Below, in pieces: positions 38,968-42,854 of a stretch of DNA of 64,000 nt. The DNA lies in NCBI GenBank assembly GCA_946493765.1, contig CAMMAZ010000001.1:1-64000 (forward strand), written 5' to 3'. Under the pieces are notes generated by a model. That model had not been told where the DNA came from, ran no database searches, and saw only the letters and a list, made by a program, of their open reading frames with translations. Position 1 is the stretch's first letter, and every line of letters starts with the position of its first letter. The translations under genes and the position numbers were made by a program. This DNA is from an uncultured Clostridia bacterium (GTDB lineage: Bacteria > Bacillota > Clostridia > Oscillospirales > Acutalibacteraceae).

Positions 38968-39011
38968 ATTTATTGAAAGCTTGAAATTCTGCTTGCATTG
39001 GAGGTGTTCTG

Positions 39012-40010
39012 TTGCCTTCTATCAGAGAAATCACGCAAGAAAATGAAAAACGGATTTTGTCGGAATATGCCGTTTTAAGCTGCAACACAAAGGGCCGCGA
39101 ACGAGAGGAACCGGAATGTTCAGTGCGCACTGCGTTTCAGCGGGATCGTGACCGGATTTTGCATTGCGCGTCCTTTCGGAGATTAAAGCATAAAACACAG
39201 GTTTTTATTGCGCCGGAGGGCGACCATTACCGCACGCGGTTAACGCATACCCTGGAGGTTTCGCAAATCGCACGGACGATCGCGCGTGCTTTGCGGTTGA
39301 ATGAAGATTTAACAGAAGCCATTGCTTTGGGGCACGATCTTGGGCATACGCCGTTCGGGCACGCAGGGGAACGGGCGCTGTCACGTTGCATTGGCGGCGC
39401 ATTTCACCATTATGAGCAAAGCGTTCGGGTGGTCAAACTGCTTGAGAAAAACGGACAAGGGCTAAATTTGACTTATGAAGTTTGCGACGGCATTTTGTGC
39501 CACACAAACGGACAAGCGAAAACGCTGGAAGGCAGAGTCGTTAAGTTTGCGGATAAAATCGCATATATGAACCACGACATCGACGATGCGCAAAAAGCAG
39601 GCGTTTTATCCGAAACAGATATCCCGCCGCATCTGCGAGAGGGGTTAGGCGGTTCCAAAAGCGCCAGAATCAACACGATGGTCAATGCGCTGATTGCCGG
39701 CAGCGGGGAAGACATTACCATGCCGCCGCAGTATTTGCAGCTGTTTGACGAACTGCACCGTTATTTGTTTAAATCCGTCTATACCAATCCGGTAGCAAAA
39801 GGCGAAGAACATAAGGCAGAAGATTTGATCGCAACATTGTTTTCCTATTTTAGCGCACATCCGGAGCTTTTGCCCGCGGAATACCAAACCATCCTGCAAA
39901 AGGAGGGCGTCACCCGTGCGGTGCTGGATTATATTGCCGGCATGACGGATCGATATGCCGTGTTTACCTATAATAAACTGTTTATTCCGAAATCATGGAG
40001 TATTTATTAA
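39012..40010 (+). CDS. Deoxyguanosinetriphosphate triphosphohydrolase (dGTPase-like HD protein)
   Basis: FRRLKHKTQVF; TRLTHTLEVSQIART; LGHDLGHTPFGHAGE. Confidence 0.95.
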   Translation: MPSIREITQENEKRILSEYAVLSCNTKGREREEPECSVRTAFQRDRDRILHCASFRRLKHKTQVFIAPEGDHYRTRLTHTLEVSQIARTIARALRLNEDLTEAIALGHDLGHTPFGHAGERALSRCIGGAFHHYEQSVRVVKLLEKNGQGLNLTYEVCDGILCHTNGQAKTLEGRVVKFADKIAYMNHDIDDAQKAGVLSETDIPPHLREGLGGSKSARINTMVNALIAGSGEDITMPPQYLQLFDELHRYLFKSVYTNPVAKGEEHKAEDLIATLFSYFSAHPELLPAEYQTILQKEGVTRAVLDYIAGMTDRYAVFTYNKLFIPKSWSIY

Positions 40011-40032
40011 AGATTTAAAGAGGTGAGCTTTT

Positions 40033-41799
40033 ATCAGACTTCCAAATGACTTTATTGCCGAACTGCGGTTTCGCAATCCTGTTGAAGAGGTCATTTCTTC
40101 TTATGTCCAGTTAAAGCGCACCGGAAATACATATAAAGGCTTGTGTCCTTTTCATAATGAGAAAACGCCGTCGTTCACCGTTTATCCACAGACTGCGTCT
40201 TATTATTGTTTTGGCTGTCAAACCGGCGGCGATGTGATTCATTTTATTAAAAACATTGAAAACCTCGATTATATGGAAGCGGTCAAGCTGTTAGCCGACC
40301 GTGCGGGTTTGTCATTGCCCGAAAGCGGTTATGATGATTCGGCGGAAAAGATGCGCCGCCGGATCTATGCGATCAATCGTGAAACGGCAAAATTTTTTCA
40401 TGCCTGCCTTTTGGACGCCAAAATTGGGCTGAAAGGGCGGCAGTATTTTGCGCAGCGGAAGTTGACGCCTAAAACGATCACCCATTTTGGATTGGGCTAT
40501 GCGCCCGACAGCTGGAATGCGCTTTGCGATCATCTGCGGAAAATGGGATATTCCAATGCGGAGCTGACACTTGCCAATGTTGCAAACAACGGAAAAAACG
40601 GCGGTGTTTACGATCGGTTCAGAAACAAGATCATGTTTCCGATCATCGATGTGCGCGGAAATGTGATTGCCTTTGGCGGTCGGAAATTTCCCGGCGAGGA
40701 AGGCGCAAAATATATCAACACCTCCGACACGCCTGTTTATAAAAAAAGTCAGAATATTTATGCATTAAACTTTGCAAAAAATGATGCCTCCGGCACGTTG
40801 ATCCTTTGCGAGGGATATATGGATGTGATTGCGCTGCATCAGGCGGGATTCACCAATGCCGTTGCGGCACTTGGCACTTCTTTTACCGAAGACCAGGCGC
40901 ATATACTAACAAAATATGCAAAAGAAATTATTGTGACGATGGATGCGGATGAGGCCGGGCAGAAAGCTACCAGGCGAACGATCGATATTTTGAAAAAAAC
41001 CGGCGTGCAGGTGCGGGTTTTGCAGATCGAAGGGGGAAAAGACCCCGACGAATTTATCAAAGCGTATGGCGCTGAGAAATTCAAAGCCCTGTTATCCGGC
41101 GCTAAAAATGATATTGAATATCAGTTGTTTCGTTTGCAGGGAAAATATGACATCACCACCGATGCCGGAAAGCTGCAATATTTAAATGAAGCGATCGATG
41201 TGCTCACCGCTGTCGATTCGATTGCCGAAAACCTATATGCGGGACGGCTGTCGATGGAACTTTCAGTCGATAAACAGGTCATTTTAAAGCAGATCCAGAG
41301 AAAAAGGGCGCTCAAACGAAAAAATATTGAAAAAAAACAATTTCGTGCGCTCACAACGCCGGCACCTGTGCGAAATGCAGTCAACAGGGAAGAGGTGCAG
41401 CACCGACGTGCCTGCATTGCGGAAGAAAAGATATTGTCCGTCATGATGCTGCATTACGATTTGTATCAAAAATATTCCGCTGTTCTTTTAGCGGATGATT
41501 TTGTCACCCAATTTAATCAGACTTTGTATCAAAATTTAAAAGACAGTTTTTATCAAAATGAGTTTGTGCTTTCGATGTTGAATGACCGCTACAGTCCGGA
41601 ACAAATCAGCAAGATCGTGCAGATTCAGAATCTTGAAACAGGCAATCCAAATCCTGAAATCACCTTGAAAGATTGTATAAATGTATTAAAAGAAGAAAAA
41701 GCTAAACTGAAAGTATTTGCCGCGGAGGATATGTCCGATGACGATTTTCAGTCTGCTTTGAAAAGTATAGGCAAAAACAAGATCGGAAAGGATAAATAA
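40033..41799 (+). CDS. dnaG: DNA primase DnaG (apparent ATC start)
   Basis: [20 protein letters not shown] zinc-binding motifs, [17 protein letters not shown]; conserved N-terminus [29 protein letters not shown] extends upstream of ORF-track start; in-frame TGA at 40024-40026. Confidence 0.9.
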
Positions 41800-41801
41800 A
41801 A

Positions 41802-42854
41802 ATGGAAGAAAACAAAAAAGTGCATGAAGAAATGGATGAAAATATGCATCACATGTATAAAGAAGAGGACATAGATGCCGATGCATTTGCGGACATCCCG
41901 GAAAATCTCGATGAAGATTTAAAGGAAGCCCCGCTTTTGGACTTGGATGATTTTACCGAAGAACCCGATCTGGAGGATATTGAGGAAATCACGCCGGAAG
42001 AGCTCGAAAATGCACTCAATATCGACGATATTTCTTTAAACGATCCGGTCAAGATCTATTTAAAGGAGATCGGACGTGTCCCGCTTTTGAGCAGTGATGA
42101 AGAAATTGAATTGGCAACGAAGATTTTGGATGGAGATGTCAAAGCAAAACAGAGACTGACGGAAGCGAATCTTCGTTTGGTTGTCAGTATTGCCAAACGT
42201 TATGTTGGTCGCGGCATGCATTTTCTGGATCTGATTCAGGAGGGTAATGTCGGTCTGATCAAAGCGGTTGAAAAATTTGACCACACAAAGGGCTTTAAAT
42301 TTTCCACCTATGCGACCTGGTGGATCCGGCAGGCCATCACACGCGCCATTGCCGACCAGGCGAGAACCATCCGCATTCCGGTGCATATGGTGGAAACCAT
42401 TAATAAGCTGAAAAAAGTGCAAAGCCAGCTGCTGCACGAAAATGGAAAAGAAGCAACCGAGGAGCAGATTGCGGAAGAAATGGGTTTGCCGGTCAGCCGT
42501 GTGCGTGAAATCATGCGTGTGGCACAGGAACCTGTTTCCATGGAAACACCGATCGGTCCCGAGGAAGACAGCCGTTTGATGGATTTTATCCGGGATGAAG
42601 ATGCGCTTGCACCGGATGAAGCGACCATGAAAGTGATCACAAACGAGGATATCGATGCTGTGCTGCGCACATTGACACCGCGTGAGGAAGATGTGATCCG
42701 GCTGCGGTTCGGTTTGAGCGACGGCAGATGCCACACACTGGAAGAAGTCGGAACAGAATTTAACGTGACCCGTGAACGGATCCGCCAAATCGAAGCAAAA
42801 GCGCTGCGCAAATTGCGGCATCCTGTCAGAAGCAACAAATTCAAGGATAAGTAA
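41802..42854 (+). CDS. rpoD: RNA polymerase primary sigma factor (RpoD/SigA)
   Basis: [76 protein letters not shown]. Confidence 0.98.

Follow-up and report, generated by a model that had tools for sequence, protein, structure and literature searches.

The DNA primase gene dnaG of an uncultured Clostridia bacterium is probably translated from an AUC codon, at position 40033 of the window (the whole 64,000-nucleotide stretch of DNA analysed); we put the probability of this reading, drawn from sequence comparison, at about 0.88. That this AUC is the true dnaG start, made usable by a strong Shine-Dalgarno (SD) sequence, appears well supported. No canonical start is found at the homologous N-terminus, a strong SD (GAGGTGA) precedes the ATC in normal register, and dnaG is the only well-supported gene of its kind (i.e., no SD-backed canonical start near the 5' end, and a strong SD before a non-canonical codon) in a set of 59 long ORFs from the window. 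The features of the region are as follows.

38985..40010, + strand: dgt (dGTPase-like), upstream gene; start TTG 39012, stop TAA 40008-40010
40018..40026, + strand: SD AAGAGGTGA, with a seven-base perfect run GAGGTGA at 40020-40026; from duplex and register
40023..40025, + strand: GTG within the SD, out of the dnaG frame in the window and in frame in L087; rejected as a start
40024..40026, + strand: TGA in the dnaG frame, closing the frame upstream; from the sequence
40033..40035, + strand: ATC, inferred dnaG start codon; from comparison with relatives and SD register
40033..41799, + strand: dnaG, DNA primase, 588 aa; Pfam Zn_ribbon_DnaG, DNAG_N, Toprim and DnaB_bind
40141..40143, + strand: TTG, first canonical in-frame codon, taken as the start by mechanical ORF calling; initiation here would truncate the zinc domain
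41802..42854, + strand: rpoD/sigA, downstream gene; ATG start with an SD

The dnaG start region and the primase N-terminus

A preliminary description of this DNA had proposed the ATC start, and its account of the local sequence holds on re-reading. The TGA at 40024-40026, which overlaps the SD run GAGGTGA (40020-40026), is in frame with dnaG and blocks any earlier start; from this stop to TTG 40141 the frame contains no ATG, GTG or TTG; and ATC 40033 follows the GAGGTGA by six bases, the frame after the SD and TGA reading GCT TTT ATC AGA CTT CCA AAT GAC TTT ATT. Pairing of the SD with the 16S tail gives a duplex of -11.7 kcal/mol at the window dnaG ATC, in register 4. The SD had also been called perfect, which is right for the seven-base run and too generous for the whole, AAAGAGGTGA being one G short of the full AAAGGAGGTGA. 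In the same gene cluster, the window dgt has another weak start, the canonical TTG 39012 with GGAGGTG. The operon is rearranged within the genus, two genus mates (L003 in G001 and L005 in G003) having another gene, not dgt, directly upstream of dnaG.

The gene product is a bacterial DnaG primase, for which the Pfam zinc, DNAG_N, Toprim and DnaB_bind domains all score above cut-off. The DnaG CHC2 zinc domain in Pfam (PF01807) matches residues 5-96 as numbered from the ATC, so that initiation at TTG 40141 would remove part of this domain; this bears out the earlier proposal that the primase N-terminus is encoded upstream of that TTG. Protein-level constraint can be followed by comparison with L087, the dnaG locus of G083, which is the nearest relative by identity (61%, in a different genus). 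Differences between the two at codon positions 1/2/3 number 12/4/22 over dnaG codons 2-36, and 7/8/7 over the 36 bases upstream of the ATC. Such variation, biased to third positions within codons 2-36 and even upstream, argues that translation starts at or very near the ATC.

Homologous starts in related bacteria

We read the homologous dnaG start in 80 public contigs and in the genomes of the family, as the preliminary description had suggested for related genomes. Of the dnaG start regions, 271 were distinct, and in 264 of these a canonical codon with some SD pairing lies close to the aligned start (ATG 179, GTG 47, TTG 38), an automatic count that is lenient in that L206, L207 and L214 are credited with a GTG inside their SD. 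ATG, GTG or TTG lies exactly at the codon aligned to the window ATC in 212 of the 271. The window ATC is thus the counterpart of the canonical starts in relatives and shares their SD register, and it is common to a second genus: G083 has ATC at the homologous dnaG codon (start region AAGAAGGTGAGCGTT followed by ATCAGATTAAGT). The three genus mates of the window genome start dnaG with TTG, TTG and GTG, and in them the same GGTGA serves as SD only, its GTG being out of the dnaG frame.

A third genus, comprising 14 genomes including G169, is mixed within itself, with dnaG starts of ATC (3), ATT (1), CTG (1), TTG (2) and ATG (7). Its non-canonical starts are L206, L207 and L215 (all ATC), L212 (ATT) and L214 (CTG), of which L215 and L212 are clear further cases; in L215 the ATC comes directly after an in-frame TAA, a case as strict as that of the window. 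L087, L206, L207 and L214, which carry an in-frame GTG three codons upstream of the dnaG start as part of the SD itself, are less strict cases than the window and L215. The codon class is therefore shared by G083 and five of the 14 genomes of the G169 genus, and not by the three genus mates. In the wider group, L063 has ACG at the homologous start (AAAAAGGAGGCGGACGTA followed by ACGGCACTG), and its frame is free of canonical codons as far back as the preceding stop.

Register sets these codons apart from the GTGs within the SD. Canonical dnaG starts fall almost entirely in registers -1 to 5, the majority in 1-4, with a peak at 2 (n = 210), and the non-canonical codons in registers 2-4, whereas the in-frame GTGs inside the SD fall at -6 to -10, where none of the 210 canonical starts lies. 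On the dnaG tree, the non-canonical starts stand on separate branches among canonical sisters, which requires at least 8 changes when L213 and L216 (ATG one codon off the aligned position) are scored as canonical. As judged from these sequences, the non-canonical dnaG start arose several times in related bacteria.

Folding of the RBS gave no useful difference between ATC and TTG relatives, and the exact 30-mer of the dnaG start region had no match in viral contigs. A degenerate DNA pattern (SD plus ATC) run across 398 genomes was dropped as far too unspecific. Several dnaG matches in family genomes, those in G183, G184, G072 and G064 among them, include a single in-frame stop, which may simply be the gene's natural stop codon close to where the alignment ends.

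Three other genes served as rough controls. For dgt, 3 of 81 relatives are without a well-placed SD start, and one of these (L068) simply has ATG, which leaves 2 of 81 apparently without a canonical start; the start habit is thus not exclusive to dnaG. The first of the two, L238, appears to start dgt with ATT (GGAGTGATATTT followed by ATTTCTACAATC) and the second, L236, with ACG or ATT (GGCGGTGAGATTACG), neither having a canonical codon at the proper distance. No rpoD without a canonical start was seen among 35 relatives. In the affected clades (20 genomes), every dnaB has a canonical start codon (a few with a weak SD) and 7 dnaG have a non-canonical one, a contrast that is no proof of a dnaG-specific excess, these genomes having been picked after the fact for their odd dnaG starts.

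Alternative readings of the start

A sequencing or assembly error, either an ATG misread as ATC or an extra T in the TTTT at 40029-40032, would remove the need for an AUC start. The window reads TTTTATCAGA, and an error would mean ATG or TTTATCAGA over 40010-40040; with three T, GTG 40023 would enter the frame (M-S-F-I-R-L-P), much as L087 has an in-frame GTG AGC GTT ATC AGA, one base shorter than the window GTGAGCTTTTATCAGA. Such a GTG would, however, sit within its own SD (in L087 at register -10, with a duplex of -0.6 kcal/mol vs. -11.5 kcal/mol for the ATC), and the genus mates use their GGTGA as SD only. The other genes of the window read intact. As the nearest relative, an independent genome, also has ATC at the same codon and five of the 14 genomes of the third genus have ATC, ATC, ATC, ATT and CTG, we consider an error improbable; a single extra T is the main technical doubt, and it would leave the strict cases elsewhere unexplained. 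A start further downstream, yielding a shorter primase, is less probable still. TTG 40141 is indeed the first canonical codon, but none of ATT 40054, CTG 40063 and TTG 40141 has a proper SD, the first canonical codon with one being codon 264 of the open frame, and all three would lose conserved residues of the N-terminal helix and zinc domain that are under protein-level constraint. ATT 40054 and CTG 40063 were rejected on both grounds, and TTG 40141 for cutting the zinc domain. GTG 40023, which is out of frame and lacks an SD (duplex -1.8 kcal/mol), was likewise rejected as the dnaG start; a reading in which this GTG is used and the ribosome then shifts +1 at AAA TGA C (40044-40050), superficially prfB-like in having an in-phase TGA then C eight codons on, is not conserved in the relatives, which start directly, and can be regarded as extremely improbable.

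The AUC start might also be real and of no regulatory consequence, i.e., drift tolerated because of the strong SD and a low demand for primase, and we see this as a serious possibility, at somewhat below even odds. Its occurrence is scattered and shallow, ATG sisters are frequent, closely related genomes have ATG or TTG, and the frequency of ~3% among sampled dnaG genes resembles that for dgt. Against drift can be set the contrast between dnaG and dnaB in the affected clades, for what an after-the-fact comparison is worth, and the discrimination of such codons by IF3 in the bacteria tested, from which some IF3 sensitivity would be expected, selected or not.

IF3 and known non-canonical starts

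The infC gene is the textbook case of an IF3-discriminated start. That of the window genome starts with ATT after CGGAGGTG (L114, G000:C5:53905-54114, minus strand), and at the same codon all three genus mates (L198, L200 and L203) have ATC. In sister genera infC starts with ATT (G083 and G115) or ATC (G201), and in the genus of G169 with ATC in nine cases, ATT in two and ATA in one. In these bacteria AUC therefore ranks as a normal start of the IF3 class, which strengthens the plausible proposal that primase is kept low through a weak, IF3-discriminated codon.

Under the AUC reading, the strong SD GAGGUGA would place the ribosome on the dnaG AUC despite the codon mismatch, and AUC 40033 would be decoded by initiator fMet-tRNA at low efficiency. 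IF3, by destabilising 30S complexes on such codons, would then reject a share of the dnaG complexes, so that primase synthesis may be throttled and tied to IF3 activity, as in infC. The IF3 repression and low yield of such non-canonical starts are established (PMC5472188, PMC13009471); for dnaG, reduced yield and IF3 sensitivity would be expected by extension from those other genes. A selective reason may lie in the few primase copies needed, from a gene placed between the differently expressed dgt and rpoD. We give IF3-limited dnaG expression with a selected role about an even chance. It is tempting, if rather doubtful, to go further and place primase in an IF3-controlled gene group of the family, the infC codon class having been repeatedly adopted at dnaG and at times at dgt; if true, such a group would link the state of translation-initiation fidelity to the supply of replication enzymes.

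More practically, gene calling limited to ATG, GTG and TTG cuts the primase zinc domain in these genomes. The natural series of dnaG starts in related species (ATG, GTG, TTG, CTG, ATT and ATC) would bear on the cell's need for primase and on the reach of IF3 into DNA replication.

To our knowledge, AUU and AUC starts are known for very few bacterial genes, and our literature searches found no AUC or AUU start of dnaG. The dnaG case resembles infC (AUU, AUC or AUA start, autoregulated) in codon class and strong SD, but infC is under autogenous feedback, whereas primase would be a target and not the regulator. E. coli pcnB, with an AUU start, is translationally limited in its expression (Binns and Masters, 2002, as cited in PMC13009471); like dnaG it is a nucleic-acid enzyme gene with a non-canonical start, although gene and codon differ and its limitation was measured in E. 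coli, whereas dnaG here is known from sequence. The ATC start of Listeria monocytogenes rnhC has been experimentally confirmed (PMC13068326) and offers the same codon in a different nucleic-acid enzyme gene; there it is fixed within the species, whereas the non-canonical dnaG start is sporadic across genera. IF3 repression was shown for Streptomyces sigR (GTC start) and reduced yield for S. aureus cvfC1 (AUU) and ccpN (AUA; PMC5472188, PMC13009471), all three sharing with dnaG a non-canonical start and an extended SD, but being regulators where dnaG is an essential replication enzyme. The dnaG AUC joins the known non-canonical-start genes infC, pcnB, rnhC (ATC) and sigR (GTC).
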